A stretch of DNA of 64,000 bases, taken from Rhodococcus sp. ARC_M6. GTDB lineage: Bacteria > Actinomycetota > Actinomycetes > Mycobacteriales > Mycobacteriaceae. Position numbers and translations under genes: made by a program. Below, one piece after another: positions 41,435 through 62,524 of the stretch (within the stretch, counting starts at the first letter, position 1; the number at the start of each line of letters is the position of its first letter). The notes under the pieces were generated by a model. The model saw only the letters and a list, made by a program, of their open reading frames with translations, did not search any database and was not told the origin of the DNA. The stretch spans positions 1 to 64,000 of the forward strand of contig NZ_JALGQH010000018.1 of the NCBI RefSeq assembly GCF_022810305.1. Reading direction: 5' to 3'.

Positions 41435-41452
41435 TAATCATAATCATGATTA
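41435..41452. promoter_or_regulatory. Island operator site A
   Basis: TAATCAT-AATC-ATGATTA: perfect 7-bp arms with a 4-base centre, 52 bases before the binding-protein start at 41383. One of seven sites with a WRTC centre flanked by AT in the 40-63 kb region. Confidence 0.65.
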
Positions 41453-41504
41453 GTGAATATTCAAGTGTTTCAACATAATTCGATGAAGAATTATCAAGCA
41501 AAGA

Positions 41505-41529
41505 GGCCGGCTCCATAAAGGAACCGGCC
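41505..41529 (-). terminator. Terminator after the permease gene
   Basis: GGCCGGCTCC (41505-41514) and GGAACCGGCC (41520-41529) pair with one mismatch around ATAAA, 26 bases beyond the permease stop. It separates the permease gene from the downstream binding-protein gene. Confidence 0.7.
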
Positions 41530-41554
41530 CCGGAGTGTCCGTCTGAAAACTGTG

Positions 41555-42403
41555 TCAGTTCTGCCAGCGAAGCAACCAGCGTTCGAACTTGCTCGAACCG
41601 ATACTGGCCACCGTCGCAATGGTCACCAGCACGATCAGGACTGCAAAAACGTAGTCGATCTGGAATTCACTGCTGTATCGCACAATGTCTTGACCCAGGC
41701 CGTTCTTTGCCGCGATCATCTCACTCGCGATCACACCCAGGATCGCGTACGTGATTGCCAGACGCAAGCCGGCAAAGATCGTCGGAACTGCTGACGGCAG
41801 AATCACTTTCGTCATCATCTTCTGTCGGTTCAGCCCGACGACCTTGGCCATGGTCATCTGATCACGATCTACACCCTTGACTGCGGATCGAGAGTTCTCC
41901 ACGAGCAGGAAGAACACGATCGACACACCCATCACGACTTTGGAAGTGTTTGTCAGACCAAACCAGGCGACGAACAACGGAGCCAAGGCAATTCGCGGAA
42001 CTGCGTTGAGTGGGACGAGGAACGGACTGAACACGCGATCCAGAAACTCGTTGGTGCCGATCAAACAACCCACAACGATTCCGGATACGGAACCGATGAC
42101 AAACGACTGGACCACCGCAGTCAGAGTTGCACCCGCCGAAACACGCATCTGTTTCGACGTCACGTAATCGATCAATGCGCCCCACACCGCGCTCGGCTGG
42201 CTGACGAACAGTGCGTTCGCCCAACCCTTGTTGACAGCAACTTCCCACAGGATCAGGAAGCCGACCACAATCACGAATTGCGTGGCAAGGATGCCTGCTG
42301 TGAACTTCGACGGTCGCCAGAATCGTTTCGACTTCGTCACCGGCGCAGCGTGACTGCGTGTCGCGGGTACTGCAGTCACCGTGGTTTCCAATTGTGTACT
42401 CAT
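41555..42403 (-). CDS. ABC transporter permease (SsuC/TauC type)
   Basis: 282 residues with about six transmembrane segments and the EAA-type cytoplasmic loop (VDRDQMTMAKVVGLNRQKMMTKVILPSAVPTIFAGLRLAI) that docks to the ATPase. A 35-residue charged N-terminus precedes the first helix. It lies 46 bases downstream of the ATPase gene. The family imports sulfonates, nitrate or aromatic acids; the ligand depends on the two adjacent binding proteins. Confidence 0.9.
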   Translation of the reverse strand: MSTQLETTVTAVPATRSHAAPVTKSKRFWRPSKFTAGILATQFVIVVGFLILWEVAVNKGWANALFVSQPSAVWGALIDYVTSKQMRVSAGATLTAVVQSFVIGSVSGIVVGCLIGTNEFLDRVFSPFLVPLNAVPRIALAPLFVAWFGLTNTSKVVMGVSIVFFLLVENSRSAVKGVDRDQMTMAKVVGLNRQKMMTKVILPSAVPTIFAGLRLAITYAILGVIASEMIAAKNGLGQDIVRYSSEFQIDYVFAVLIVLVTIATVASIGSSKFERWLLRWQN

Positions 42404-42449
42404 TCGCTATTTCCGATCTGTCTCGCCGGTGCGGGCTGTGAGTTGCCCG

Positions 42450-43337
42450 TTAGTCTGTGGGTGTTTCACTACGCCCGACGGCGCCTTCGAGTTGAGTGAA
42501 CAGCTCGTGCTGCAACTCGCGGAATCGCTCGGTGAAGATGATCTCGTCAATCAGATGTGCTCGCGGACGCGGAAGATCGATGAGAAGATCCGTCGCAATT
42601 CGCCCGGGGCTCGGAAGCATCACGATGACACGGTCTGCAAGCACTGTCGCTTCCTGCAGGTCATGAGTGACCAGGAAGACTGTTCGCTTGGTATCACCGT
42701 TCTCGTCGAGATCGTTCTCCCAGATTCGCAGGAACTCGCCCTGCATGTGGAGTCGAGTCCGCGCATCGAGTGCCGCGAACGGTTCATCCATCAACAACAT
42801 TGTGGGGTCGGACGCCATCGTCCGTGCAATCGCCACACGCTGACGCATACCCTGCGACAGTTGCGACGGAAATTGCTTCTCCTTGCCAGCCAAACCGACC
42901 ATCGCAAGCATCTCGTCGGCACGCTTCTTACGTTCTCCCGCAGGAACATTGCGCGCTTCCAGCGGAAGTGAAACGTTCTTCCGGGCGGTGCGCCAAGGAA
43001 GAAGCGAATCTCGCGCGAACATGTACCCGAGATCGAAGTTCGGCGATTTGGGTGTGCTCCCCGAAAGGAACACTTTTCCACCCGTGGGCGCGGCCAAACC
43101 CGCCGCCATGTTCAGCAACGTGGTCTTGCCACAACCACTGGCTCCCACAATCGCAATGAACTGACCGGCCGGAACCTCGAAACTGACGTTGTCCAGGGCA
43201 ACGAATTCGGCTGTACCACCCGAGCCCCCATAGACCTGCGACACGTTCTCGAACTTGAGAATGGAGTCGCGTACGGGCTTGACACGCTGTTCGTCGGTCA
43301 TGGTTACATCCGATTGCCTGCTGTACAGATCTGTCAT
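42450..43337 (-). CDS. ABC transporter ATPase (SsuB/TauB type)
   Basis: 295 residues from ATG 43337; an ATG 12 codons later (43301) is also possible. Walker [11 protein letters not shown]-loop region, signature LSQGMRQR, Walker [12 protein letters not shown] and H-loop VTHD are intact. It energises the import system with the permease at 41555. C-terminal tail of about 40 residues without recognised domain. Confidence 0.92.
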
Positions 43338-43469
43338 CTCATTCTCGATCCACTTCGGGTTCCGAATCCGTCGACGCTCGACGGGCGTATGCATACACAC
43401 ACATTGAGGCTGGCGTTCGATTCCTCTTCACCGACGAATGTCATTGGTTCGCAGGCGAATCTCGAACAA

Positions 43470-44495
43470 CTACTTGGCTACAAGTACTGCTTGTTCGTAC
43501 GTCACCTTCGGTTCGGCCGCGAGCACACCGAGCGCAGTAAGACCATCGATGGTTTTCTGCATTTCCGGTTCGGCAAGCTCAGCCGTCAGTACCGAGAAGT
43601 TCTCCCGAATCTGATCGACTGCCGATGCAGCGGTATTGCTACCGACTGCGTCGATGACATAGTCGTTCACTGCGTCCTTGTTCGCCGGATCCTGCAGGAA
43701 CTTGTACGCATCCGACATGGCCGCACAGAATCCACTCTCCGCCTTGGGGTTCTCCTCGACCCAAGAGCGCCGGCTCTGCCACACACCACCGATAAACTGG
43801 TAGTTCTCCATATCGTCGGACAGATACGTAAGCTCGATCGCATCTCCATTGCCGACGACGGTTTCCGCAGTCGGGGTTGCTGCCATCGCCGCATCCACCT
43901 GCTTCGAAATCAGCGCGGCTTGCGCTGTAGTACCGGAACCGATGTTGACGAGGGTGTAGTCACCTTCGTTCAACCCCACGCCCGCCAGTGTCTGCACCAT
44001 AAGGTTTGACGTTCCCGTGCCCGCAGCAGCAGGCATTCCGAGGGTTTTGCCCTTGAGCGCTTTGAGAACATCAACACTGGTTGCGCCCGACACGGCCGTC
44101 GGGAGTCCGCTGCCGATCGGCGCGACAATAGCCGTCGGTGTATGCGAATTTCCTCCGCAAGAAATAACGGCGTCTTGGCCCTGTTGAATTGCAGCAAGCG
44201 CTTGGCTTGGCGACGAAGGGCCGAAATCCTCTACACCGCTTGCTAATAGCTGATTGTGACCCATGCCCGATGGCGACGGCGACACCGTTACATCTACACC
44301 GGCCGCATCGAAGAAGCCTTCCGCCTTCGCCACTGCGATCGGAATCCCCCACACCGTACCCGGAGTCACGGAAACGTTGATCTTCGCGAGTGAACCATCG
44401 GTTGTGTCGCCGGTGGCACCACCGTCACTCCCGCATGCGACCAACGACAGTCCGAGCAGGGCCACGCCCGACAATCGCGCCAGATGAGCACGCAT
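43470..44495 (-). CDS. ABC solute-binding lipoprotein, NMT1/SsuA type (copy 2)
   Basis: 341 residues; ATG 44495 with CCGGAGG upstream. Lipobox LVACGS. Nearly the same framework as the copy at 40364 (VSVTPGTVWGIPIAVAKAEGFFDAAGVDVTVSPSPSGMGHNQLLASGVEDFGPSSPSQ). Differences cluster in loops such as NSHTPTAIVAPIGSG and YLSDDMENYQFIGGVW, which line the ligand cleft, so the two may bind related but distinct ligands. First gene of the transporter row, with an operator-type dyad 57 bases upstream. Confidence 0.89.
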   Translation of the reverse strand: MRAHLARLSGVALLGLSLVACGSDGGATGDTTDGSLAKINVSVTPGTVWGIPIAVAKAEGFFDAAGVDVTVSPSPSGMGHNQLLASGVEDFGPSSPSQALAAIQQGQDAVISCGGNSHTPTAIVAPIGSGLPTAVSGATSVDVLKALKGKTLGMPAAAGTGTSNLMVQTLAGVGLNEGDYTLVNIGSGTTAQAALISKQVDAAMAATPTAETVVGNGDAIELTYLSDDMENYQFIGGVWQSRRSWVEENPKAESGFCAAMSDAYKFLQDPANKDAVNDYVIDAVGSNTAASAVDQIRENFSVLTAELAEPEMQKTIDGLTALGVLAAEPKVTYEQAVLVAK

Positions 44496-44551
44496 TTTTC
44501 AACCTCCGGATAGATGTGAAACAAGTCATAACGAAGACGTACTTATGCGAT

Positions 44552-44569
44552 TAATCATAGTCATGAATC
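44552..44569. promoter_or_regulatory. Island operator site B
   Basis: TAATCAT-AGTC-ATGAATC, 57 bases before the binding-protein start at 44495. The left arm and centre equal site A except for one base; the right arm is partly degenerate. Confidence 0.6.
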
Positions 44570-44679
44570 GGTGGTCGTCAATACCTGATCAGGAATTCGC
44601 AAATCTGGCCTTCATAGGCCGAAACGGCGACACGACGGCATGCCACCAGTGTCAAGCCCGCATCAAGACTGTCGGGAAC

Positions 44680-44889
44680 CTACACGCCAGGTCTGGCAAC
44701 CAAGGCGATCGCCAACTCGGGACAAGCATTGACGGCAGTCACGGCATCATCATGCAATTCAGCGGGAACCTCGAAGGTGGTCCCGCCCTCTGCCACGAAG
44801 CCTTCCTCGTCGTCGGACAACAACGACGGAACCTCGCCATAGCAACGCCCGTGCCCCATGCACTTACTTTTGTCGATAGTCAGGTACAT
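44680..44889 (-). CDS. [3Fe-4S] ferredoxin
   Basis: 69 residues. C10, C16 and C56 with H13 in the second-cysteine position (CMGHGRC ... ACP) give the CxxHxxC(n)CP pattern of actinobacterial P450 ferredoxins. It should pass electrons from a reductase to the P450 encoded one base upstream. No ferredoxin reductase gene is in the window. Confidence 0.93.
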   Translation of the reverse strand: MYLTIDKSKCMGHGRCYGEVPSLLSDDEEGFVAEGGTTFEVPAELHDDAVTAVNACPELAIALVARPGV

Positions 44890-44890
44890 G

Positions 44891-46087
44891 TCAGACGTCC
44901 CATTCCAAAGGCAGTGCCGTCAAAGTAAGTTGGGCGCCACGCTCGGTCAGCTCGGCATCTCCTGCGAGCCGATACTCAGGGATTCGTTTATGCCACTCTT
45001 CGAGCACCACCGCCAGTTCCAATCTGGCCAGATGCATTCCGATACAGCGATGAGGTCCGGCACCGAACGCCAGGTGCTGGTTGAGCCCTTGACGATCCAG
45101 AATGAACTTGTCGGGTTCGGGGAACTTCTCGGGATCGCGATTGGCAGACCCGATGCCAAGCCAGACGACGTCTCGTTCCGCCAGTTCGAGTCCATGAAAC
45201 TCGGTGTCGGCCTGGACTCTACGACCCGCTTGAATCACCAGGGGGTACATCCGGATGAACTCTTCCACCGCGCTGCGGCAGAGTGTCGGATCCTCGACCA
45301 GCAGTCTCCGGTCCTCAGCATTTTCGGCCAGATGCGCGAAGATATATCCCAAGGCTGACCGCGTCGTGTCGAGTCCGGCGAGCATCAGGGACATACAGAT
45401 CAGGAGAATATCGTCCTGAGTGATGCCATCATCATCGATCTGCGCTTGGACCAACCTGGTAAGAAGGTCCTCCTTGGGGTCACGCGGGTTCTGACGACGC
45501 TCGTTCACCGCCTGATCGAAGTAGGCCAGGATCTTGTTCTTGGGTTCGTCGACATCCGGCCCGTATCCGGCCAACATAGCGTTGAGCATGTCTTCGCTCC
45601 ACGGGACGAAGAACTCACCGTCGCTGACGGGAAGGCCGAGCAGTGTCAGAAAGATGTCCGTCGGATATCGAATCGCGAACTCCGCGACGAAGTTACAGTT
45701 ACCTTGTGGCCGCAGCTCTTCAATCAGTTCGATGCAGCGCGCGTGAGCAAGCTCTTCCATTCGCTTGACCGCAGCCGGCGCAAAAAAGGGGTTGATGACC
45801 TTTCTCAACTTGGCATGCTCGTCACCGTTAAGGTCCTGCGGCAAGAGACGCAAGGTCGTGTCCGGGTACAGAGCGGACCGAGACTCAGTCGTCCACTCCT
45901 GATGCTTCTGAAAACCTTCCAGTACGTCCTGGTACCGGGTCAGCATCCAGAAGCCGTTCTCGTTGGTGTCGTTGAAATGAAAACGGGCCGAATCGCGCTC
46001 CGCGTCGAGAAGTGCGTAATGCCCGTAGATTTCGGATTTCTCAGCATATCGATTGTGACTGACCGGGCAATCCTGGACGGTGTTCAT
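44891..46087 (-). CDS. Cytochrome P450
   Basis: 398 residues from ATG 46087 (GAGAGGATCTCG upstream). I-helix AGLDTTRS, ExxR in EEFIRM, and heme loop FGAGPHRCIGMHLAR with C348 as thiolate ligand. The soluble class I type suits the ferredoxin gene next door. The N-terminus MNTVQDCPVSHNRY is short, as in bacterial CYPs. It presumably hydroxylates the starting substrate of the island, for example a terpenoid or alicyclic acid; the family number cannot be assigned by eye. Confidence 0.93.
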   Translation of the reverse strand: MNTVQDCPVSHNRYAEKSEIYGHYALLDAERDSARFHFNDTNENGFWMLTRYQDVLEGFQKHQEWTTESRSALYPDTTLRLLPQDLNGDEHAKLRKVINPFFAPAAVKRMEELAHARCIELIEELRPQGNCNFVAEFAIRYPTDIFLTLLGLPVSDGEFFVPWSEDMLNAMLAGYGPDVDEPKNKILAYFDQAVNERRQNPRDPKEDLLTRLVQAQIDDDGITQDDILLICMSLMLAGLDTTRSALGYIFAHLAENAEDRRLLVEDPTLCRSAVEEFIRMYPLVIQAGRRVQADTEFHGLELAERDVVWLGIGSANRDPEKFPEPDKFILDRQGLNQHLAFGAGPHRCIGMHLARLELAVVLEEWHKRIPEYRLAGDAELTERGAQLTLTALPLEWDV

Positions 46088-46452
46088 CGAGATCCTCTCT
46101 GTGTGGGTCGATCCGATGCAAGCAATCACTCTGCCAGCACCACTGCTGGTCTTGAAGGAAATCTCGTCGACCACCAGAGAGCTCAATGCGAACGGCGGCA
46201 AGAAGGTGACTGCGAGCAACGCCTCGAACCGTCTAACCAGTTAGTGACGTGCGGCACTATAATGATTATCATCATTGATGATCGCGGGGCTGTCAAGGGA
46301 CGTCGGAATCAACGCGCGAATTTCGGGACTGAAACGCACTCGCTCAACACCGCGCCGACAATGCTGCTGTTACCAAACAAGATTCGACTGAAGTCGATTG
46401 TGAACAGCACTTCGAACAGGTCGGCCATCGGCCACATCCGGTCGCCGCCTTG
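46088..46452. other. 365-bp gap between the LLM gene and the P450 gene
   Basis: No gene is evident. It must carry the promoter of the P450-ferredoxin unit and contains one island operator at 46260-46277, 173 bases before the P450 start. The rest shows nothing I can interpret. Confidence 0.6.
46260..46277. promoter_or_regulatory. Island operator site C
   Basis: TAATGAT-TATC-ATCATTG with perfect inner 6-bp arms AATGAT/ATCATT. Same 7-4-7 architecture and TATC centre as the site at 57461. Confidence 0.6.
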
Positions 46453-47475
46453 TCACGCTGACTCGACGCGTTGTGCAGCCGACCGATAGCCCAGCTCCTC
46501 AAGCTTCGGCAACACCTCGGACGCGAACAGTTCCAGGCTGCGCCAGCCGTGTTCTGGCGGCAAGCCGCCCATCAGAGGCTGGAACATCAACTCCGAATCG
46601 ATACCGCGCTCGACACACAGATCGACACACTGCCCCGGCGTCACTACGACAAAGTGTTTCTGCTCCTTCAATTCCTCGAGCGTCTCGACGAACGGGTAGG
46701 TGGTCGTTCCGACTCCACGTTCCTTGGCCCACTGCGCATTCGAGTTGGTCGTGTAGAGCAGGTGCGGTGCCAGAATCGGCCAATCACGGTCCGGATCATC
46801 GGTGACAAAAAGGAACAGTGGTCCGGGGTTCGGCGGCCGAGGAGGAATCGGCAGTCCCAACTTCCGTCGTTCCTCGTTGTAGATTGCATACAGTCCGTCC
46901 TTGTCGCCGGCGGGCATGTAGTTGTCCCCCAGCTTGGCAGCGCGGCGCGCCGACGCCTCAGCCGAACCACCGATGTAGATCGGCGGTCGCGGGCTCCGCA
47001 CCGGCGTCGGACGAACTCGCACGGTCTTGCCTCGGTACTCGAACGGTTCTCCAGTCCAGGCTTTTTCGAGTATTCCGATCGTTTCCTCGAGAATCTTCAC
47101 GCGGCGCGCGCGCGGAATCTCAAACATCTCGTACTCACTGTCGCGGTAGCCGATGCCCATCGTCATCTCGATACGTCCCGAGCTGATGATGTCCAGGGTC
47201 GCGAGATCCTCAGCCAACCTCAGGGGATTGTGTAATACCGCGACAAGTGCTGAGAAGTGAATGTTCATCCGCTCGGTACGGGCCGCGATGGCCGAACCCT
47301 GGATCAGCGGCGAGGCACAGTAGCCGTCCTCTGCGCCATGATGCTCGGCAAGAAAGACGGTCTCGAAGCCGAGTTTGTCCGCCCAGTCGCACTGGTCGAT
47401 CGCAGCCTTGTACAGCTCGGCGACCGGGGCCCCGATCGAAGGCGCACGCATGTCGTAACGCAGTGAAAGTCTCAT
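46453..47475 (-). CDS. LLM-class flavin/F420-dependent oxidoreductase
   Basis: 340 residues. Luciferase-like barrel with LAEHHGAEDGYCASPLIQGSAIAART, NPLRLAEDLATLDIISSGRIEMTMGIGYRDSEYEMF and PRPPIYIGGSAEASARRAA. Third gene of the minus-strand row thiolase-fold, DUF35, LLM, with a 48-base gap. It is distinct from the LLM gene at 11567. Substrate unknown; oxidation or Baeyer-Villiger type insertion on a ketone is possible in this family. Confidence 0.87.
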   Translation of the reverse strand: MRLSLRYDMRAPSIGAPVAELYKAAIDQCDWADKLGFETVFLAEHHGAEDGYCASPLIQGSAIAARTERMNIHFSALVAVLHNPLRLAEDLATLDIISSGRIEMTMGIGYRDSEYEMFEIPRARRVKILEETIGILEKAWTGEPFEYRGKTVRVRPTPVRSPRPPIYIGGSAEASARRAAKLGDNYMPAGDKDGLYAIYNEERRKLGLPIPPRPPNPGPLFLFVTDDPDRDWPILAPHLLYTTNSNAQWAKERGVGTTTYPFVETLEELKEQKHFVVVTPGQCVDLCVERGIDSELMFQPLMGGLPPEHGWRSLELFASEVLPKLEELGYRSAAQRVESA

Positions 47476-47523
47476 GAAATTACCGCACTTTCTGGTGATG
47501 TTCGAAAGATCTCTGGGGATGCG

Positions 47524-47967
47524 TCAGCTGGCATCCACTGAAAATGTCGGCAGCGTGTGAGTCTCGAACTTGTTGGGCGAGAGCGTCACCCGCGCTCCGA
47601 TAACGGGGTCTGCACTTCCCGGTCCGACCAGGACGGTGACCAACCGAATGCCAGGCGTCTCGTCCAGTTCGACTAGTGCGACGGTATACGGCGGATTGCT
47701 ACCCGATGGCAGAAATGCGCGTTCGACCCTCGTGAAGGTGAAGATCGTGCCGTGACCATCCACGTCTCGCCATTCGAGTTCTCCGGGGTGACCGCACGGC
47801 CGGCCTGCCAAGGGATACCACTGCCATATGCCACAATCCGGGCAAGCAGGAAGAGCGATACAGCCTCGCTCGACCGCATCCCAGAATCCGACCAGCTCGG
47901 AAATATCTTGGGGCGGAGGGAAATTCGGAACTCCGGTCACTACACAACCGGCACTGGAGTCAGTCAT
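47524..47967 (-). CDS. DUF35 OB-fold protein with zinc ribbon
   Basis: 147 residues. Rubredoxin-like zinc ribbon CPDC...PCGH at about 42-60 followed by an OB-fold (HGTIFTFTRVERAF, PYTVALVELDETPGIRLVTVL). DUF35 proteins are obligate partners of thiolase-fold proteins and bind the CoA part; ChsH2 with Ltp2 is the steroid example. It starts one base after the stop of the thiolase-fold gene, supporting a two-protein complex. Confidence 0.9.
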   Translation of the reverse strand: MTDSSAGCVVTGVPNFPPPQDISELVGFWDAVERGCIALPACPDCGIWQWYPLAGRPCGHPGELEWRDVDGHGTIFTFTRVERAFLPSGSNPPYTVALVELDETPGIRLVTVLVGPGSADPVIGARVTLSPNKFETHTLPTFSVDAS

Positions 47968-47968
47968 G

Positions 47969-49114
47969 TCAGCGATCCTTCGTCAAGATGAGCGTCGCAT
48001 GTTCCGGACCACCGAGTGCCGCGATGAGCGCGGTCTCGGCACCGTCGACCTGCGCTTCGCCTCGGGTCCCTCGAAGCTGGCGGACACCTTCGATCACATG
48101 CACGATCCCGGGGATGTAGGCATACGACATATGACCGCCGTTCGTATTGACCGGCATTGTTCCTCCGGGAGCCGTATTTCCATCTGCAGCGAAGGCGAAT
48201 CCCTCACCCCGGCCACAGAATCCGAGATCCTCGAGTTGGATCGCCTGCGAAATACTGAAGCAGTCGTAGATCTCGGCGACATCGATATCCGATACCGACA
48301 GTCCAGCGTCGGCAAAAGCGATCGGCCCCGATCTGGAAGAACCGAACGAGAGCATGTCAGCCTTCTGAGTGAAGAAACTAGTCATCGTCGTCTCCACGGA
48401 CGTGACTCCCACACCGGCGATCAGCACCGGTGGGTTTGCCAGATCACGTGCCCGCTCGACCGAGGTCACGATGACAGCGCCGGCCCCATCAGTGATCAGG
48501 CAACAGTCCGCGACGCGGAGTGGTGAGGCCACCATCGGGCTGGCCAGGTAATCGTCCTGGGTCATCGGTTGACGCTTCTGCGCGCCCGGAGTGATCTGCG
48601 CCCAAGCTCGGTTTGATCGCGCGATGGAGCCTAAATCCTCTGGCGCAACGCCGTATTCATGGCAATACCGCTGCGCCCACGCCGCAAAGTACGTAGGTTG
48701 GCCGTACCACCCGAAGGGCATTTCCAGACTCGCCTTGATCGGATCCCGCGCGTGATATCCGTACGGACCACCGGGTTTCGATCCCATGTAGCCGTAGTAA
48801 ACGAGCACGGTCTCCGCCTGACCGGCGTTGATAACCGCTTTGGCCAGCGCGACGGCCGCGAGAGGTCCTGCGCCTGCAGGAATTCCGGGTGACGCCGTAA
48901 ATTTCCGATCTACACCCAAAGCTGTAGCGATCTCGTCGGCATTGAATGTCGAACCTGCCGGAATGACGCCGTCTATGTCGCTCGCGGTCATACCCGCGTC
49001 ACGCATTGCCGTCCGACTTGCCTCGATCATCAGCGCATCCACAGAGCGGTCGAGACCACGACCGAACTCCGATTCACCCACACCGACGACGGCAACATTC
49101 GCCCTATTGCTCAC
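47969..49114 (-). CDS. Thiolase-fold protein of the SCP2/Ltp2 type (aldolase-like)
   Basis: 381 residues from GTG 49114 (GGAGG six bases upstream). Family blocks VAVVGVGESEFGRG, YDCFSISQAIQLEDLGFCG and NTNGGHMSYAYIPGIVHVIEGVRQLRG. The usual nucleophilic cysteine is absent: the corresponding stretch reads VLVYYGYMGSKPGG. Cysteine-free members such as Ltp2 are retro-aldolases that cleave 3-hydroxyacyl-CoA side chains together with a DUF35 partner, which is encoded next. I therefore infer C-C cleavage of a tertiary 3-hydroxyacyl-CoA, not thiolysis. Confidence 0.87.
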   Translation of the reverse strand: MSNRANVAVVGVGESEFGRGLDRSVDALMIEASRTAMRDAGMTASDIDGVIPAGSTFNADEIATALGVDRKFTASPGIPAGAGPLAAVALAKAVINAGQAETVLVYYGYMGSKPGGPYGYHARDPIKASLEMPFGWYGQPTYFAAWAQRYCHEYGVAPEDLGSIARSNRAWAQITPGAQKRQPMTQDDYLASPMVASPLRVADCCLITDGAGAVIVTSVERARDLANPPVLIAGVGVTSVETTMTSFFTQKADMLSFGSSRSGPIAFADAGLSVSDIDVAEIYDCFSISQAIQLEDLGFCGRGEGFAFAADGNTAPGGTMPVNTNGGHMSYAYIPGIVHVIEGVRQLRGTRGEAQVDGAETALIAALGGPEHATLILTKDR

Positions 49115-49142: not shown

Positions 49143-49160
49143 TATTCATGATAATAGTCA
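49143..49160. promoter_or_regulatory. Island operator site E
   Basis: Minus strand TGACTAT-TATC-ATGAATA, 29 bases before the thiolase-fold gene start. Arms are degenerate but the core AT-TATC-AT is kept. The 311-bp divergent gap 49115-49425 has no gene. Confidence 0.5.
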
Positions 49161-49328: not shown

Positions 49329-49346
49329 TATTCATGACAATGGTTA
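49329..49346. promoter_or_regulatory. Island operator site F
   Basis: Minus strand TAACCAT-TGTC-ATGAATA; arms match at 5 of 7 positions. It lies 80 bases before the phosphotransferase gene start, so each divergent unit has its own site. Confidence 0.55.
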
Positions 49347-49425: not shown

Positions 49426-50472
49426 GTGGATAACTCGAGCGTGGTGGACATGGACCGTCTGACGTCCTGGATGGACGAGAACGGAATCGGGACAGGTCCT
49501 GTGACCGACGTCGTCGAACTTGCCGGCGGCACACAGAACATCCTCATTCGATTTTCTCGTGGCGGACAAGACCTCGTATTCCGTCGACCTCCACTACACA
49601 AGCGCAAGAACAGCGACGAGACCATGCGTCGAGAGGCTGTGGTGCTGGCAGGACTCGCGGACAGCGACGTTCCACACCCCCGCCTCATCGCCTCGTGCGA
49701 CGACCACGACGTTCTCGGATGCCAGTTCTTCATCATGGAAGCAATCACCGGCTTCACGGCCACCTCCGAGGTACCGGACACTCTCGCGACTTCACTCGAT
49801 CAACAACACGACATGGGTCTGTCGATGATCGATGCATTGGCAGCGCTGGGGCGCATCGACCCCGAGACGGCCGGTGTTTCAAACCTCGGTCGTGCGGACG
49901 GATGGCTCGAGAGGCAAGTAGCCAAGTGGCGGAAGCAACTCGATTCGTATTCCGAACTGGAAGGGTGGCCAGGTTCCTCGGGTTTGCCCGACATTGATCG
50001 ACTGGGCGTCTGGCTCCAGGCCCATCGACCACAAGACTGGCAGCCCGGACTGATCCACGGCGACTTCCATTTCGGCAACGTCATGTTCCGACTCGATGTA
50101 CCGAAAGTAGCCGCAATCATCGACTGGGAACTCGCGACGATCGGCGATCCGCTGCTCGACCTCGGACACCTTCTCGCGACGTGGCCCAACGAAACGGAAC
50201 GCCGGACGATCGGCCTGGCTAAAGCCCTGCCTGGATTACCCACGCGCGACGAACTTATTGCGCAGTACTCGCAGGGAAGCACCCGCGACCTGAGCAACGT
50301 CGACTGGTATCAAGCGTTGGCCTGCTACCGCTTGGGCATCCTGCTTGAAGGAACATACGCCCGATCCTGCGCCGGCAAGGCTGCCGCAGATCTGGGCAAG
50401 CGTCTGCATCTGACCGCGGAATCGCTTATAGAGCAAGGTCTGAGCATCGTCGATCGAACCCACGTCGGCTGA
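49426..50472 (+). CDS. Aminoglycoside phosphotransferase-fold kinase (ACAD10/11-like)
   Basis: 348 residues from GTG 49426 (GAGGTGAG upstream); GTG 49417 is an alternative. Kinase motifs LIHGDFHFGNVMF (catalytic loop) and AAIIDWELATIGDPLLDLGHLL (metal-binding Asp). The group near acyl-CoA dehydrogenases resembles the N-terminal kinase of human ACAD10/11, which phosphorylates 4-hydroxyacyl-CoA to allow its dehydration and beta-oxidation. The island's acyl-CoA dehydrogenase at 56223 could be the partner. The same fold also contains true antibiotic kinases, which the context does not favour. Confidence 0.85.
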   Translation: MDNSSVVDMDRLTSWMDENGIGTGPVTDVVELAGGTQNILIRFSRGGQDLVFRRPPLHKRKNSDETMRREAVVLAGLADSDVPHPRLIASCDDHDVLGCQFFIMEAITGFTATSEVPDTLATSLDQQHDMGLSMIDALAALGRIDPETAGVSNLGRADGWLERQVAKWRKQLDSYSELEGWPGSSGLPDIDRLGVWLQAHRPQDWQPGLIHGDFHFGNVMFRLDVPKVAAIIDWELATIGDPLLDLGHLLATWPNETERRTIGLAKALPGLPTRDELIAQYSQGSTRDLSNVDWYQALACYRLGILLEGTYARSCAGKAAADLGKRLHLTAESLIEQGLSIVDRTHVG

Positions 50473-50513
50473 GCGTCGATCGCCCATCCCGAGCACCCCT
50501 GAAAGGACTTCCC

Positions 50514-51950: not shown

Positions 51951-52157
51951 CAAGTCGTCCAATCTCGCGCATAGTCTTCTCGAACATGGCCGCCGGGGGC
52001 ATCCGCAAAGAATCGCTGATTGACCCACCACTACCTATGTCCTAGATTATATTAATAGTTATCATTTAATTGTCCATGCAACGAGCAGATCATCGAATGT
52101 GCGAAATCTTTCGATCGCGCCGTGCGACGCGACAGCCACCGCCGCGAGAGGAACACG

Positions 52158-54031: not shown

Positions 54032-54772
54032 TCAGTCGCGCCCACCCCACGCGATCGGGGTGTCGAGCAACTCCGGGTAATGTTTGGTGTCGTAACGCCA
54101 GATGCCGGCAATATGTTCTTCCATCGCCGTCAACGCCGCAACTGGATCCCCATCGGCCACCGCAAGATAGATCTTCTCGTGGATATCGCAGGTCGCGACG
54201 CGGCTACGCATGGGATACTCCATGCCCATTGCCGAACCGTCGAGCATGTCGAGCAGCGCATGTATGAGGTAAGCGAAGAGGACATTTCCTGAACCCTGCG
54301 CGACCGTGTCATGGAAGACCCGGCTCATCTCCACGAAGATCTGTTCGTCGTCGAGGTTGGCCCGTTGATGTTCGACGCAATGCTTGAGCGCCACCAATTG
54401 CTCGTCGCTAATCCGTTCCGCCGCAAGCTTGGCCATCATCGGCTCGAGCGCTGTACGCGCTTCGACGATCGTTCGAAACGGAGCGCTCTCGAACTGCAGC
54501 AGCAGCGTGATTGCCGTGCCGAGCGCAGCGCTGTCCGGTTGCTGAACAATCGGACCACCACCTGGCCCCGGTTTGAGTGCAAGCACTCCTTGCAATTCCA
54601 GGAACCGCAGCGACTCCCGGAGCGTGCCACGTCCAACTTCGTATTCCTCGAGCATCACTCGCTCAGGCGGCAACCGATCACCGACCTTGTTGCCGCGGCG
54701 GTTGATATCTTCAACGATCCGCTGCGCGACAAGCATCGCAGTCTTCTGCGGACGCAATGTTGCCCGTACCAC
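54032..54772 (-). CDS. GntR/FCD-family regulator
   Basis: 246 residues, GTG start at 54772. Winged HTH at about 14-72 (LVAQRIVEDINRRGNKVGDRLPPERVMLEEYEVGRGTLRESLRFLELQGVLAL) and an all-helical FCD domain with histidines in FHDTV, DIHEKI and EEHI that probably hold a metal for acid-ligand binding. It is the only regulator encoded between 40 and 64 kb, which makes it the first candidate to control the seven island operators. TTGAT-G-ATCAA lies 105 bases upstream (54877-54887) and could be an autoregulatory variant. Confidence 0.9.
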   Translation of the reverse strand: MVRATLRPQKTAMLVAQRIVEDINRRGNKVGDRLPPERVMLEEYEVGRGTLRESLRFLELQGVLALKPGPGGGPIVQQPDSAALGTAITLLLQFESAPFRTIVEARTALEPMMAKLAAERISDEQLVALKHCVEHQRANLDDEQIFVEMSRVFHDTVAQGSGNVLFAYLIHALLDMLDGSAMGMEYPMRSRVATCDIHEKIYLAVADGDPVAALTAMEEHIAGIWRYDTKHYPELLDTPIAWGGRD

Positions 54773-55017
54773 TACACACCTCCACTAGCCACGATCTCCC
54801 GACCAGGAGTACGAAAATGGCAATTCCTGACTATGTTTACCTCATCGTACGGCGCATCACAACGTAATCGATGCAATTGATGATCAACGTCGTAAATCGC
54901 CCATACGGTTCGCGGCACAGACCACACTCACACCCGTCGTCCGCCGCTCACTCCCGCGTTGACGCGAAGATTCTTGAACGCCATTCCCCTTTGCCGCTGC
55001 CTGAATTGGCAATAAAG

Positions 55018-56220
55018 TTACTGCACGATGCCCGACGAGCGCATCGCCTCGATCTGCTCAGCGGAGCGTCCCAGCGAACCGAGAATGGCATCCGTCTGCT
55101 CGCCCAACGCCGGCACCGCGTCCATTCGCATCTCCACATCCGAGAAAGTCATCGGTGGCAGCACTCCCCGAATCGGGCCGGCTTCGGTGCTTACCTCTCG
55201 CCACCGATCCCGCTCCTCGAGTTGCGGATGCGCCAGGAGCGCCTTCATGTCGTTGAGCTGCGCAGCCGGAACACCAGCCTGTGCCAGCTTGTCGTCGAGG
55301 TCGGCCGTCTTGAACTCGCGGGTCAACTCCGCCACGAGAGCATCGACCTCACCGCGATGCTGAACGCGAAGAATGTTGGTGGCGAACCGCGGATGCTCCG
55401 CCAGATCTGGTCGCCCGAACACCTCTGCAACCAACTGCGTCCATCCACGATCGTTCTGCACGCCGATCAGGATCTGCCCGTCAGCAGTCGGGTACGCGTC
55501 GTACGGCGCGATCGAGGCGTGACTGAGGCCCATCCGCTTGATCTGTGTGTCCTGGTACATCTGCATATACATCGGATGACCCAGCCATTCCACCGTGGCG
55601 TCGAACATCGCGACGTCGATCGTGGCACCCGCACCGGTGCGTTCCCGACGGAACAGCGCCGCCTGCACCGATGTCAACGCATACAACCCTGCGGCGATAT
55701 CAGATGCGGGAACACCTGTCTTGGTTGCGGTTTCAGGCGTCCCGGTGATCGAGCACAGACCGGTCTCCGCCTGCACCAGCATGTCGTAAGCCTTACGATC
55801 CTTGAGCGGCCCTGCAGTGCCGTAACCGGTCATGTTCACGACGATCAGTTCCTGGTGGTCGGCGCGCAGCGCATCCGCGCCGAGCCCGAGACGTTCCGCT
55901 GCACCGGGCGCGAAGTTCTGGATGAACACATCTGCCGAAGCGATCAGATCGATGATCGCCGCGCGTCCCTGCTCCGATTTGAGGTCGACGCAGATCGACT
56001 CCTTGTTCCGGTTCAGCCACACGAAGTGCGAAGCCAACCCGTGTACGGCCGCATCGTAGTTTCGGGCGAAGTCGCCTTCCCCGATGCGTTCGACCTTGAT
56101 CACGCGCGCGCCGAGGTCGGCGAGGTGACGACTGGCGATGGGAGCTGCGACAGCCTGCTCGAGGCTTACAACCGTGACACCTTCGAGCGGCAGACCTGTG
56201 GAAGTTGCAGTATCCGACAT
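55018..56220 (-). CDS. Class III (CaiB/BaiF) CoA transferase
   Basis: 400 residues from ATG 56220, two bases after the acyl-CoA dehydrogenase stop. N-terminal LEGVTVVSLEQAVAAPIASRHLADLGARVIKVE, DLKSEQGR, and the catalytic aspartate D174 in GVPASDIAAGLY. Unlike the proteins at 29514 and 35619 this one has the canonical domain order and motifs. It activates the island's carboxylic acid with CoA, with an acyl-CoA as donor. The 245 bases downstream (54773-55017) hold no gene. Confidence 0.91.
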   Translation of the reverse strand: MSDTATSTGLPLEGVTVVSLEQAVAAPIASRHLADLGARVIKVERIGEGDFARNYDAAVHGLASHFVWLNRNKESICVDLKSEQGRAAIIDLIASADVFIQNFAPGAAERLGLGADALRADHQELIVVNMTGYGTAGPLKDRKAYDMLVQAETGLCSITGTPETATKTGVPASDIAAGLYALTSVQAALFRRERTGAGATIDVAMFDATVEWLGHPMYMQMYQDTQIKRMGLSHASIAPYDAYPTADGQILIGVQNDRGWTQLVAEVFGRPDLAEHPRFATNILRVQHRGEVDALVAELTREFKTADLDDKLAQAGVPAAQLNDMKALLAHPQLEERDRWREVSTEAGPIRGVLPPMTFSDVEMRMDAVPALGEQTDAILGSLGRSAEQIEAMRSSGIVQ

Positions 56221-56222
56221 GA

Positions 56223-57413
56223 TCAACGCCCCGTTCCGGCGGCGGCAACCTTCTTGGCCTGGTTAACCAGACCGCCACCGATGATCAGGCGTTGAATCTC
56301 GCTGGTGCCTTCGTACAGGCGCAGCAGACGCACGTCACGGTAGATACGTTCGACCGGCATCTCTCGCATGTATCCACTACCACCGTGGATCTGCACGGCG
56401 AGATCAGCTGCCTTCCCGACCATTTCGGTGCAGAAGAGCTTCACGGCCGAGGGCCCGATCCGACGATCCTCCCCGGAGACATAGCGCGCCGCCACCTCAC
56501 GGACCATCGCCCGACCGGCCATCACACCGGTCGCGATGTCGGCGATCATCGCTTGAACCAATTGGAAGTCCCCGATCGCAGTACCACCCTGCGTCACTGT
56601 CGCGGCGTATGCGACTGCTTCGTCGAGTGCACGCTGTGCCGAGCCGACAGACAACGCTGCGATGTGCACGCGGCCGCGAGCCAGCGAGGTCATCGCCGCG
56701 CGGTAACCCACGTCCTCGTTGCCACCCACGAGAGCTGAATTCGGCACTCGCACATCGGTGAAATGCACGTCAGCCGTCCAGGCGCCTTCTTGCCCCATCT
56801 TGCGATCCTTCGGGGAGACCTGCACGCCTTCAGCGTCGGCCGGGACCAGGAACACCGCAATGCCCGTACCGTTCGCGTCCGCTGGACGCGTGCGAGCAAA
56901 CACTACGAACAGGTCCGCGAGTGGGGCATTGGTGATGAACCGCTTCTCTCCGGAGATCACCCAATCATCGCCCTCGTGTACGGCCTTGGTTCGCAGCCCC
57001 GCCGGGTTGGAACCCGCGCCGGGTTCGGTGAGCGCAAATGAGGCCACGACATCTCCGGATGCAATGCCCTCGAGCCACTGCTGCTTCTGCTCATCAGTAC
57101 CGAAGTTGACCAGAACCTGGCCGGCGATGCCGTTGTTAGTGCCGAACATGGATCGCAATGACAGCGAGGTGTATCCGAACTCCATTGCGAGTTCGACATC
57201 CTGCGTCAGATCCAGTCCCAGGCCACCCCATTCCTGTGGAATGGCATACCCGAAAAGGCCCATCGCGGCGGCATTCTTACGAATGTCCTCCGGAATACTG
57301 TCGGTGTCGGCGATCTCCTGTTCACGCGGAACAACGCCCTTTCGGATGAACTCACGTGTCTGTCCCAGGATGTCTACAAAATCTTCCGGACCGACTGCAC
57401 TACCTGATGTCAT
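56223..57413 (-). CDS. Acyl-CoA dehydrogenase (paralogue of the 38964 gene)
   Basis: 396 residues from ATG 57413; GAGGAG lies about ten bases upstream. [35 protein letters not shown], catalytic glutamate in [13 protein letters not shown]. Close paralogue of the dehydrogenase at 38964 along its entire length. The frame extends 200 codons further upstream, but that part overlaps the divergent SDR gene and is not coding. It heads a two-gene unit with the CoA transferase, consistent with activation followed by desaturation. Confidence 0.91.
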   Translation of the reverse strand: MTSGSAVGPEDFVDILGQTREFIRKGVVPREQEIADTDSIPEDIRKNAAAMGLFGYAIPQEWGGLGLDLTQDVELAMEFGYTSLSLRSMFGTNNGIAGQVLVNFGTDEQKQQWLEGIASGDVVASFALTEPGAGSNPAGLRTKAVHEGDDWVISGEKRFITNAPLADLFVVFARTRPADANGTGIAVFLVPADAEGVQVSPKDRKMGQEGAWTADVHFTDVRVPNSALVGGNEDVGYRAAMTSLARGRVHIAALSVGSAQRALDEAVAYAATVTQGGTAIGDFQLVQAMIADIATGVMAGRAMVREVAARYVSGEDRRIGPSAVKLFCTEMVGKAADLAVQIHGGSGYMREMPVERIYRDVRLLRLYEGTSEIQRLIIGGGLVNQAKKVAAAGTGR

Positions 57414-57456
57414 ACTCGCAATACTCCTCACAGTGCCTGCCTGTGTCAATGGATTG

Positions 57457-57482
57457 TATAGATTGATTATCATCAATCTATA
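57457..57482. promoter_or_regulatory. Island operator site D (extended palindrome)
   Basis: Perfect 11-bp arms TATAGATTGAT (57457-57467) and ATCAATCTATA (57472-57482) around TATC, the strongest of the seven island sites. It lies 44 bases before the dehydrogenase start and 22 bases before the divergent SDR start, so one bound protein could control both. Confidence 0.75.
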
Positions 57483-57504
57483 ACACGTACGAGAGGAACC
57501 ATCG

Positions 57505-58296
57505 ATGAGTACCACTGGACGTTTGGCCGGGAAAACCGCTTTGATCACCGGTGCGGGCTCAGGCCTCGGCCGAGCCACTGCGCTTCGCTTCGCAGAAGAA
57601 GGAGCCGCAGTAGCCTGCGTCGACCTGAACCTCACTGCTGCACAAGCAGTTACACAGGAAATCCGAGAGAGAGGGGGGCGCGCGATTGGTCTCGCGGCCG
57701 ATGTTTCCTCCTCTGCCGACTCCGAAAAGATGGTGTCCGACGCCATCGAGCAACTCGGCCGGGTAGATATCCTGTTCGCCAACGCCGGCGTTGCCGGCAC
57801 CGGCAACGCCGCCGACATCAGCGAGGACCTGTGGGACAAGGTCATCGATATCAATCTCAAGGGTGTCTGGCTCTCAGCGAAATACGTTCTGCCCCATATG
57901 ATCGAACGCGGCGAAGGCGTGATCATCAACCAGGCCAGCATGGGTGGCCTGGTTGGGATCAACGGAATTTTCCCGTACACGGCAGCGAAGGGTGGCGTCA
58001 TAGCGATGACCAAACAGATGGCAGTCACCTACGGTCCCAACGGGGTTCGTGTCAACGCAATCTGCCCGGGCACAATTCCCACACCCCTCGTCTATCGCTC
58101 GAGAGAAGAGCGCGGCGATGCCCCGGCGAACGCCGATCACTCAGCAAAGGACGCCGAAGTGTCCAAGCGCTTCCCGCTGCAGCGTCTCGGCACCCCGGAT
58201 GACGTCGCAAACCTCGCGCTCTTCCTGGCCAGCGACGAGGCTAATTGGGTCACTGGTTCGATCTACGCCGTCGACGGTGGCCGTAGCGCCGCCTGA
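57505..58296 (+). CDS. Short-chain dehydrogenase
   Basis: 263 residues; ATG 57505 with GAGAGGAACC upstream. TGAGSGLGRATA, ANAGVAG, NQASMGG with catalytic serine, YTAAK, tail VTGSIYAVDGGRSAA. The aspartate in ACVDLNL indicates NAD. Divergent from the dehydrogenase-transferase unit and sharing operator D. Stands alone before a strong terminator. Confidence 0.89.
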   Translation: MSTTGRLAGKTALITGAGSGLGRATALRFAEEGAAVACVDLNLTAAQAVTQEIRERGGRAIGLAADVSSSADSEKMVSDAIEQLGRVDILFANAGVAGTGNAADISEDLWDKVIDINLKGVWLSAKYVLPHMIERGEGVIINQASMGGLVGINGIFPYTAAKGGVIAMTKQMAVTYGPNGVRVNAICPGTIPTPLVYRSREERGDAPANADHSAKDAEVSKRFPLQRLGTPDDVANLALFLASDEANWVTGSIYAVDGGRSAA

Positions 58297-58312
58297 ACCG
58301 ACTCTCCGATAG

Positions 58313-58351
58313 CGAATGAGGCGGTATCCGCTACGGACACCGCCTCATTCG
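58313..58351. terminator. Terminator between two convergent SDR genes
   Basis: Perfect 13-bp arms CGAATGAGGCGGT (58313-58325) and its complement (58339-58351), loop 13 bases, 16 bases after one SDR stop and 18 bases beyond the other. Confidence 0.8.
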
Positions 58352-58369
58352 GCAGTCGATGTTGCAGAG

Positions 58370-59143: not shown

Positions 59144-59149
59144 AATCTC

Positions 59150-59980: not shown

Positions 59981-60088
59981 TACTGATCCTTCACTATTTC
60001 AGTTGACAGAAATTTTCCATGTCAGTCGGTGACGAGGGCTATCGAATCATCCGGCTGACCATCTTTCAGTGACGCACTACATGACTCA

Positions 60089-60976: not shown

Positions 60977-61020
60977 ATGCTGCTACTCCATTCCATTACA
61001 TGGATATCGAAATACGAAAG

Positions 61021-61063
61021 CCCGAGCCTGGTTCACACGTTGTGAGTGCGAACCCGACTCGGG
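61021..61063 (-). terminator. Terminator after the TRAP binding-protein gene
   Basis: CCCGAG-N3-GGTTC (61021-61034) pairs with GAACC-N3-CTCGGG (61050-61063), 38 bases beyond the stop at 61101. Interrupted stem, loop 15 bases. Confidence 0.6.
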
Positions 61064-61100
61064 AGTTCATCCAAGACTCATATCAGCGCCGCTTGTTCGA

Positions 61101-62384
61101 TCAGGAAGGCCGATTAGGGAGCAGGACCTCTTCGTAGAACTTGTCCACGAATGGGCCGATGTCAATCTTGCCTGGTGCATACCAGTCAGCGAAGCCGTTG
61201 TAGTCAGTCTCGTTGGTGTATCCGAGCTCGGTGACGATCTTGGACCACTTGTCAGCGAGTTCCTTGGCATTGGCTGCGAACTGTGCACCGTCCTCGAAGG
61301 TGGAATTCTTCGACACATCCGCCAGGATGCCGGCGTTGGTCTCCTGCAACTTCGCACGAAGTGCTGGATCGAATGCCTGCACCGAGCCACCTGCTGCCCG
61401 TACTGCCTGAACTGCCTCAACCGTAATCGGCCAGATCTTGTCTTCAATGCTGCCAGAGATGAAGGTCTCCATGCGATCCCAGAGCAACTGTTGCGCCACC
61501 AAAGGCAGTCCGTCCCAGACGCCTTGGTTGATAACCATGTTTCCGGTCGGCACCGCCAAGCCTGCATCGGGGTCGATGACGACCTGATGTGCGGCCTCGA
61601 TAAATCCGCCCAAGATTCCCACAGCCGGACTCGACATGCTGCAGTCAATTACACCGCGCTGAAGTGCTTCGTACAGTTCGGTGTAGGCCACCGAAGTTGC
61701 GTTGCCACCTATCGACTTCACCTGCTGCGTCCCCGCGGTGTTGCCCACCGAGATGTTGGCGCCGTTGATTTCGGAAGGCGTGATCCGTTCCTTCGTACAG
61801 AACAGCGCATTCACGCCGGCATTGTAGGACGGAAACATCAGCTTCATGCCCTTGTCTTCGAATTCCGCGACTATCTCGGGAGTATTGAAGGCAAGTTCAG
61901 GTGCCCATGCGTTGGACTGCAAGGTACCGGTCACGACCGATTGATCCGAGAGGACACTGGTTTCAAGTAGCGCCGCCGTGGCCGGGAATTCCTTGGGCTC
62001 ATAGATTGCGACAACCTGACCGATGTCGAGACGTCCGTCCCGCACCGCGTCATCGATCTGAGCGGCCTTGGCAATAGCGTCCGAGTACGCAATATCGAAC
62101 TTGATCTTGCCGTCGGACCATTCCTCGACAGACTTCAGGTAGTTCTCCAAAAATGCACCTGCGGTCGATCCCGCTGCGCCCGGCGATTGGGTGTGGAGCG
62201 TGATCTGGTCGATGTCCGCGAAAGCAGCCTGGTACTCCTCCTTGGAAGCCCCGTATGACAGTCCTTCGCCACTCCCTGAATTGCCGCCACCGGATTCAGC
62301 ACAACCTGTGAGAGCAATAGCCCCCACAGTTGCCAGGGCACCGAAACGCAACAACGCCTTCGGCTTGTCCTCGAACATCCTCAC
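61101..62384 (-). CDS. TRAP transporter solute-binding protein (DctP), lipoprotein
   Basis: 427 residues, starting at GTG 62384, which has AAGGAG five bases upstream; ATG two codons later is too close to any ribosome site. Lipobox LTGC, a lipid anchor that is unusual because most DctP proteins are soluble periplasmic but is expected in an actinobacterium. The domain has the DctP pattern (LHTQSPGAAGSTAGAFLENYLKSVEEWSDGKIKFDIAYSDAIAKAAQIDDAVRDGRLDIGQ, VAYTELYEALQRGVIDCSM). It delivers an organic acid to the DctM permease encoded to the right. One SDR gene separates them; no small DctQ subunit is seen before the window ends. Confidence 0.88.
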   Translation of the reverse strand: MRMFEDKPKALLRFGALATVGAIALTGCAESGGGNSGSGEGLSYGASKEEYQAAFADIDQITLHTQSPGAAGSTAGAFLENYLKSVEEWSDGKIKFDIAYSDAIAKAAQIDDAVRDGRLDIGQVVAIYEPKEFPATAALLETSVLSDQSVVTGTLQSNAWAPELAFNTPEIVAEFEDKGMKLMFPSYNAGVNALFCTKERITPSEINGANISVGNTAGTQQVKSIGGNATSVAYTELYEALQRGVIDCSMSSPAVGILGGFIEAAHQVVIDPDAGLAVPTGNMVINQGVWDGLPLVAQQLLWDRMETFISGSIEDKIWPITVEAVQAVRAAGGSVQAFDPALRAKLQETNAGILADVSKNSTFEDGAQFAANAKELADKWSKIVTELGYTNETDYNGFADWYAPGKIDIGPFVDKFYEEVLLPNRPS

Positions 62385-62506
62385 AGGGACTCCTTCATCG
62401 CGGTCCGACCTGGACCTGTATCACTTAGAGGTTCTATTCATCCGCAGCGCAACCAAGGCACATGCGGACAGCGACGCACGGCATCCATTTCACGTGATTC
62501 GCCTCA

Positions 62507-62524
62507 CTTACATGACAATCATGC
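62507..62524. promoter_or_regulatory. Island operator site G
   Basis: Minus strand GCATGAT-TGTC-ATGTAAG, containing the inverted repeat CATGA-CAA-TCATG (62511-62523). It shares nine consecutive bases CATGACAAT with the site at 49329. Located 123 bases before the TRAP binding-protein start; the palindrome GAATAATTATTC (62557-62568) lies further upstream. No gene in 62385-62676. Confidence 0.5.

Follow-up and report, generated by a model that had tools for sequence, protein, structure and literature searches.

Putative operator sites of the catabolic island

In the soil bacterium Rhodococcus sp. ARC_M6 (6,339,790 bases in 134 contigs), the stretch of DNA considered here, namely the first 64,000 bases of contig C11 (C11:1-64000, hereafter the window), carries a catabolic island that ends only at about 82 kb, beyond the window, and has further sites of the element under study there. 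This element is an 18-base dyad acting presumably as a regulatory switch, which precedes about ten transcription units of this single island, and it is considered together with its predicted binder, i.e., the FadR-type regulator GntR1 encoded within the same island, and with a paralog thereof, GntR2.

Two scoring matrices were used. The seven-site matrix was built from the seven dyads first described in the window and is independent of the loci of GntR1 relatives. These loci, the best 80 of 121, were found by scanning genome contigs and encode relatives 47-94% identical to GntR1; the foreign matrix corresponds to the motif obtained de novo from 78 of them, the window and Rhodococcus globerulus being excluded. 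As the foreign matrix was trained on these 78 loci, match counts obtained there with it are circular, so that the seven-site matrix was relied on for them and the foreign matrix was used for the own genome, R. globerulus and the controls. The comparison set for the genus comprised 28 genomes, among which R. globerulus (G003) has the closest orthologous island. The sites are as follows, the number of identical bases being given for the R. globerulus counterpart.

41435..41452, plus strand: putative operator before NMT1-type binding protein gene a (40364-41383, minus strand); foreign matrix 26.2; 16/18 in R. globerulus; TTGAAT-16-TATGAT, with the -10 within the site
44552..44569, plus strand: putative operator before NMT1-type binding protein gene b (43470-44495, minus strand); foreign matrix 17.7; 18/18 in R. 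globerulus; TTGACG-16-TATGAT in both species
46260..46277, plus strand: putative operator before P450-ferredoxin; foreign matrix 25.3; 18/18 in R. globerulus, with flanks only 52% identical
49143..49160, minus strand: putative operator before thiolase-DUF35-LLM; foreign matrix 17.8; 17/18 in R. globerulus
49329..49346, minus strand: putative operator before APH-type kinase-crotonase; foreign matrix 21.6; 16/18 in R. globerulus
57461..57478, plus strand: putative operator common to the divergent acyl-CoA (coenzyme A) dehydrogenase-CaiB and SDR units; foreign matrix 15.9; 18/18 in R. globerulus, with flanks 90% identical
62507..62524, minus strand: weak putative operator before TRAP DctP; seven-site matrix 19.3, foreign matrix below 9; 18/18 in R. 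globerulus; TTGACT-17-CATGAT in both species
62548..62565, minus strand: weaker companion of 62507, 41 bp away from it, with core TCGC; seven-site matrix 15.7, foreign matrix 11.5; 17/18 in R. globerulus
54822..54839, minus strand: degenerate putative operator before the GntR1 gene, a candidate for autoregulation; seven-site matrix 15.3, foreign matrix 14.7; 18/18 in R. globerulus
52050..52067, plus strand: doubtful candidate in the SnoaL/SDR divergent intergenic region; seven-site matrix 12.4, foreign matrix 13.1; no R. globerulus counterpart scoring at least 11
C11 71253/71259 and 71367, past the window: sites before a second DUF35-thiolase pair; foreign matrix 23.4 for 71367 and 21.8 for 71259
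C11 80071, past the window: weak site between an acyl-CoA ligase gene and the second GntR gene

The first seven dyads were those listed by the original prediction; all are found at these coordinates, far above chance, and each of the seven keeps the shared AT-WRTC-AT core in one orientation. The arms, described as close to TAATSAT and ATSAATA, fit well in five sites and less so in 49143 (TGACTAT) and 62507 (GCATGAT/ATGTAAG). The spacing to start codons, put at 22-173 bases, comes to 26-172 when measured from site edge to start with the P450 start at ATG 46087, the gene caller's start at TTG 46219 giving a gap of 40 for this gene. A family of seven proved an undercount given the additional sites at 54822 and 62548 and, beyond the window, at 71253/71259, 71367 and 80071. 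The supposed absence of sites before 40 kb was borne out, as the seven-site matrix gives no match of at least 16 in 1-40 kb, the best one (15.8 at 35417) lying within coding sequence. As for the 7-WRTC-7 form, the 7-4-7 arrangement is right for the arms and the 4-base core is not fixed, as AAGC, ACGC and GCGC also occur. When 83 distinct 18-mers are compared, their arms come close to TAATSAT and ATRRTTT, the bases A2, T7, T10 and A12 are present at 90-100%, and the core variants are AAGC, ACGC, TCGC and GCGC.

Past the window, another weak dyad at C11 65808 stands before the TRAP DctQ gene and has a counterpart in R. globerulus; it may bring the TRAP membrane subunits into the regulon.

Clustering and conservation of the sites

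That the dyads define a local regulon, as initially proposed, agrees with scans of the whole genome, where matches cluster at the island and only background is seen elsewhere. Exact matches to ATNATWRTCATNAW number 6 in the genome, of which 5 (corresponding to four sites) lie on C11 between 41 and 72 kb and 1 on C10; with at most one mismatch, 42 matches are obtained vs 4 for the reversed control. With TAATSATWRTCATSAWTA and at most 2 mismatches, the own genome returns 6 rows (five sites, one of them on both strands), all in the island, and R. globerulus five, all in the orthologous island; in the other 26 genomes of the genus, the matches listed comprise 1 each in G005 and G008 and 2 each in G007, G009 and G010, one of the two in G007 sharing a contig with the GntR relative of that genome. 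With a second consensus, shifted towards the foreign motif, the same tolerance yields nine rows in the own genome (8 in the island, 1 on C14) and ten in R. globerulus (8 in the island, 2 on C2); at 3 mismatches, the matches are scattered genome-wide, with a total of 47 in the own genome vs 25 for the reversed control. On C11, matches of at least 14 with the foreign matrix are distributed as 0 in 1-40 kb, 10 in 40-82 kb and 0 in 82-104 kb, and none of at least 12 occurs in the control made of 20 random Rhodococcus loci (400 kb in total, 46 kb of it intergenic). A genome-wide regulon was also considered and discarded, as only background matches and Zur look-alikes are found outside the island with up to 3 mismatches.

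Between the own genome and R. globerulus, 12 site pairs have 207 of 216 site bases identical (95.8%), and their 60-bp flanks 985 of 1440 (68.4%), with conservation biased upward as the pairs were chosen as scoring in both species. At 57461, where the flanks themselves are 90% identical, site conservation says little alone. Orthologous islands devoid of the motif had been envisaged as a refutation; the closest orthologous island, that of R. globerulus, keeps the sites, as these 12 pairs attest.

The regulators GntR1 and GntR2

54032..54772, minus strand: GntR1, FadR-type regulator and predicted binder; PF00392 and PF07729; AlphaFold2 (AF2) model
C11:80239-80979, at the far end of the island: GntR2, GntR + FCD paralog, 60% identical to GntR1

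GntR1 is composed of an N-terminal GntR winged helix-turn-helix (PF00392, 43 bits, above the cut-off) and a C-terminal FCD domain (PF07729, 86.6 bits), and its R. globerulus counterpart is 94% identical. In the AlphaFold model (mean predicted local distance difference test of 89.1), a winged helix-turn-helix and seven C-terminal helices can be recognised, namely 81-94, 100-120, 123-138, 143-160, 164-179, 188-206 and 210-231. Seven C-terminal helices are typical of the FadR group and six of the VanR group; as modelled, GntR1 has the helix count of the FadR group. A Foldseek search with this model retrieves FCD regulators including 6az6, NanR (6on4) and 2di3, the last being LldR of Corynebacterium glutamicum according to an excerpt of the source (PMC4494728). 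By curated NCBIfam scores, GntR1 falls outside the named families NanR, LldR, PdhR and FadR, with NanR the best at 106.2 vs 260 and LldR at 74 vs 311.

Of 34 aligned members of the subfamily, 33 have Gly at residue 49, next to the conserved Arg 48, and 33-34 have the PGP wing. Three His of the FCD domain are invariant; the position four residues before the first of them is Asn in 25, Ser in 8 and Ile in 1, with no Asp. The FCD metal site is usually Asp-His-His-His. At an E value of 1e-30, the subfamily has only two members in the own genome, i.e., GntR1 and GntR2, and a match in 9/28 genomes of the genus. The recognition helix GRGTLRESLRFLELQG differs between the two paralogs by one residue (T50 to V), so that both may bind. 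The notion of one regulator, originally put forward, is therefore not supported, the paralog with its near-identical helix being encoded in this island too, next to a weak site of its own.

Association of the motif with the GntR subfamily in actinobacteria

Relatives of GntR1 are found in the genera Rhodococcus, Gordonia, Nocardia, Dietzia, Nocardioides, Pimelobacter, Actinomadura, Acrocarpospora, Herbidospora, Microbacterium and others. At a threshold of at least 14, the seven-site matrix gives 96 matches on the 78 foreign loci, 78 of which are intergenic (in 147 kb of intergenic DNA), and 50/78 loci are hit; on the random Rhodococcus loci, the same search gives 4 matches, all coding, and 0 in the 46 kb of intergenic DNA. 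Reversing the matrix columns leaves 4 matches on the 80 loci vs 106 with the true matrix. The density of sites peaks 2-6 kb downstream of the GntR start. For a second control, another FCD regulator of the genus (C11:94463-95191, GntR + FCD) served as query; the loci of 30 of its relatives (109 kb) contain 1 seven-site and 0 foreign-matrix matches; around the subfamily (281 kb), there are 26 seven-site and 56 foreign-matrix matches, the latter 56 being circular, in 39/78 loci.

The same dyad is also recovered when nothing is presupposed about it. In an unseeded search of the intergenic DNA of these 78 loci, with redundancy removed, it is the best motif, with a mean score of 27.2 for the top 50, and the random loci reach only 14.2, chiefly with CG-rich patterns. 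In size-matched unseeded runs, it is found in 3/3 subsamples at 25.5-26.4 vs 16.3-16.7 in controls. A free expectation-maximisation motif run capped at 400 sites produced nothing but AT and CG patterns of period 3, and the hard top-50 and size-matched runs were used instead. Applied to the window, the resulting foreign matrix recovers 6/7 dyads, each at 15.9 or more. An origin of the dyads by chance, in a region of mixed composition, could draw on the AT-rich and low-complexity character of the consensus; reversed-pattern controls, random loci, the footprint in R. globerulus and the independently learned motif all speak to the contrary, and make it extremely improbable.

When gene families are compared over the 80 loci, only GntR, on the basis of which the loci were fetched, is common to all, an SDR family being present in 52 and a thiolase family in 42. 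Since the motif is recovered de novo from the loci of relatives, is nearly absent from controls and has GntR as sole common family beside it, it points to a FadR-type subfamily with a non-canonical operator. The dyad and the GntR relatives very probably constitute a real regulator-operator system and, with good confidence, the dyads can be regarded as operators of a distinct actinobacterial FadR-type (GntR/FCD) subfamily, represented here by GntR1 and probably GntR2. The co-occurrence of motif and subfamily across actinobacteria thus favours the GntR protein of 54032-54772 as likely binder, as originally anticipated. From the sites, their clustering, their conservation and their co-occurrence with the regulator, which are computed observations, we infer binding and, further below, the direction of control and the ligand.

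The sites could instead belong to a different regulator, encoded elsewhere and controlling catabolic genes that happen to lie near the GntR subfamily. The binding by GntR1 being a prediction and 18/80 loci having a GntR gene without detected site, this view has something to start from. On the other hand, no second gene family is common to all loci and, of the 62 loci with sites, 24 are without the Thiol_3 family and 17 without the SDR family; a different regulator appears quite improbable. Besides, in 11 orthologs of GntR1 from other species (L040-L048, L073 and L109; 73-84% identical), a site such as TAAACATAATCATAGATT stands before the GntR gene itself, and is found within 350 bp upstream by the foreign matrix in 11/11 cases with scores of 19.6-23.8.

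Several observations weigh against the assignment of the dyads to the GntR subfamily, in addition to the selection of the site pairs mentioned above. Those 11 ortholog sites lie partly within the training set of the foreign matrix, and score 11.7-21.4 with the seven-site matrix, only 1/11 reaching 14. The loci and flanks are related sequences and not independent samples. An intergenic site is detected by either matrix in 62/80 loci, and the 18 others include all 7 Herbidospora loci, where the recognition helix is alike. In the window, the dyad at 62507 stays under 9 with the foreign matrix. Finally, 24 (foreign matrix) or 10 (seven-site matrix) of the 78 foreign loci have a site of at least 14 in the 350 bp upstream of the GntR gene, and autoregulation is therefore not general. 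In 6/7 Herbidospora loci (L049, L050, L052, L053, L056 and L060), a TAATCATGCGCATCGATT-like dyad precedes the GntR gene, scoring only 7-12; it has a GCGC core and similar arms, and is alike among species.

Relation to known operators

According to an excerpt of the source, the operator consensus of the FadR subfamily is a TKGT/ACMA palindrome (PMC4494728). This box is present in 0/13 own and 0/128 collected sites, and the bare GT-N2-3-AC in 3/13 and 17/128, respectively. GntR1 is thus a member of the FadR subfamily by its sequence, and its presumed operator is non-canonical. Like GntR1, the regulators LldR, PdhR, NanR and FadR combine a GntR winged helix-turn-helix with an FCD domain and have a dimer-sized dyad near promoters, the nearest solved relatives being 2di3, 6az6 and 6on4; the present subfamily differs by sites devoid of the TKGT/ACMA box typical of the FadR subfamily, and by its Gly 49 and PGP wing. 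Departures from this form have precedents in the FadR subfamily, i.e., the TGGTATAW repeats of NanR and the TTATMKATAA of BioR, as listed in the same excerpt (PMC4494728), although their sequences, symmetry and pathways differ from those of the present dyad.

An equally valid description of the dyad is AT repeated every three bases, and Fur/Zur boxes consequently look alike. Actinobacterial Zur/Fur boxes are AT-rich with ATGAT...ATCAT-like halves as here, but the symmetry centre and the target genes differ, and they are not tied to the GntR subfamily. Zur is presumably encoded in all the genomes compared. The sites might then be boxes of zinc or iron repressors with AT at every third base around ATGATWATCAT. 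Five look-alikes outside the islands of the GntR subfamily were examined, two of which are plausible Zur boxes by their Pfam neighbours, namely C10:105930 of the own genome (L035:8931), before a ribosomal L28/S14/S18 cluster and with a seven-site score of 19.2, and C1:6011110 of G010 (L121), in a ZnuA/ABC-3 cluster and with scores of 22.0 (seven-site) and 18.7 (foreign); for the remaining three, no such zinc or ribosomal context was seen. A complete ATGATWRTCAT palindrome requires G at position 5, which 3/7 window sites and 53% of the 83 collected 18-mers have. In the window, position 5 reads C, C, G, T, C, G and G, so that 4/7 sites break the palindrome centred on position 8 and nonetheless keep the 7-4-7 arms, and the foreign matrix scores C10:105930 only 9.6. 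None of the island genes that Pfam names is a zinc gene, and the clustering tracks the GntR subfamily, genomes such as G001 and G002, which lack it, having no match with at most 2 mismatches. The mycobacterial Zur consensus core [T/C]GA[A/T]AA[T/C][A/C/G][A/G]TT[T/G][T/C]C, as given in an excerpt of the source (PMC7174638), differs in sequence from the dyad. Taken as Fur/Zur boxes, the sites would be very improbably explained.

The kind of system is already known, i.e., a GntR operator with a local catabolic regulon. In Rhodococcus, steroid regulons comprising acyl-CoA and thiolase genes are controlled by KstR and KstR2, which are TetR-family regulators with other operators. Among open-licence papers, searched by titles and abstract openings, no description of the present operator and subfamily was found; as far as searched, the GntR subfamily is undescribed, as are its distribution and its non-canonical operator. 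On a broader view, whose chances we hold to be about even, this undescribed subfamily, with its GRGTLRE helix and PGPGGGP wing, would read a phased AT dyad and serve as a movable switch for varied islands of acyl-CoA catabolism in many actinobacterial genera, the two paralogs here reading the same operators and integrating two ligands. A FadR-type recognition without the TKGT/ACMA box would help in establishing rules relating GntR helices to operators, and the matrix predicts targets of a widespread and unnamed regulator subfamily, which permits the delimitation of catabolic regulons.

Promoters and proposed mechanism

Counted up to 260 bp, the distance from site centre to start codon has a median of 70. 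The sequence TTGAC, taken on the gene strand, is most frequent 21-30 bp before the site centre, with 29 of 205 flanks vs 0-5 in each other 10-bp bin, these flanks being related sequences in which divergent genes were entered twice. In both species, NMT1_a, NMT1_b and DctP have a recognisable -35/-10 pair whose -10 falls within the putative operator. The original prediction had the regulator switch on the island; the operator overlying the -10 in these three promoters, in both species, suggests rather a repression relieved by a ligand.

Activation by GntR1 and GntR2 would accord with the 8/12 site-gene pairs of the own genome that have no readable -35/-10 overlap. It fits less well with the TTGAC upstream of the sites, with the -10 inside the site in the three promoters just named and with 57461, a single site in a 91-bp intergenic region that serves the two divergent genes on either side; as such, activation appears rather unlikely. 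Repression has its own difficulties. Under a strict -35/-10 rule, most other promoters show no pair, only three doing so in both species and, in the 205 flanks, the pairs number 27 on the gene strand and 18 on the opposite strand, random points giving 1/228. With these 18 opposite-strand pairs vs 27 and only three promoters, support for repression through overlap with the -10 is no more than moderate.

In the simplest reading, a dimer would bind xxATSAT-N4-ATSATxx (about TAATSATWRTCATSAWTA), several times over the -10 region, and would repress by blocking RNA polymerase. The bound units would be those of uptake, P450 attack, CoA-ester oxidation and cleavage. GntR1, probably a repressor, may regulate its own gene, and release would occur on binding of an acid or a CoA ester of the pathway to the FCD domain.

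Island genes and substrate clues

Within the window, the genes served by the putative operators are the following.

40364..44495, minus strand: NMT1-type ABC uptake genes (two binding proteins, permease, ATPase), by Pfam
44680..49114, minus strand: ferredoxin (Fer4 single-cluster), P450, LLM, DUF35/ChsH2 C-terminal OB fold and thiolase, by Pfam and gene calls
49426..51410, plus strand: APH-type kinase (49426-50472) and crotonase (50514-51410)
55018..58296: CaiB CoA-transferase and acyl-CoA dehydrogenase (minus strand), with divergent SDR (plus strand)
61101..62378, minus strand: TRAP binding protein DctP (PF03480)

At an E value of 1e-80, the island thiolase is found in only 2/28 genomes of the genus, which makes the island accessory. 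The APH-type kinase beside the crotonase is, in our view, reminiscent of routes of 4-hydroxyacyl-CoA phosphorylation; as in the window, the Gordonia locus L040 and 5/7 Nocardia loci have a site adjoining the kinase gene. For 20 proteins tested, with the best 25 NCBIfam models considered for each, only general models pass and no pathway is named, the models passed being enoyl-CoA hydratase, FabG-type SDR, acetyl-CoA acyltransferase and fatty acyl-CoA synthetase. In the PDB, the island P450 matches CYP143, CYP101J2, CYP125 reconstructions and camphor P450s at similar scores, so that terpenoid, alicyclic and steroid substrates are not distinguished. A strain of R. globerulus grows on eucalypt oil, where 1,8-cineole and p-cymene are attacked by other P450s, namely CYP176A1 and CYP108N12, according to an excerpt of the source (PMC11889516). 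With P450, thiolase-DUF35, CaiB, kinase-crotonase and two transporters marked out here as one predicted unit, the substrate can be searched for by a single inducer screen.

The two NMT1-type binding-protein genes represent a duplication within the island, the segments 41043-41341 and 44152-44453 having 69% DNA identity over 300 bp. The island also encodes a DUF6282 protein (60089-60976), which is 94% identical in R. globerulus.

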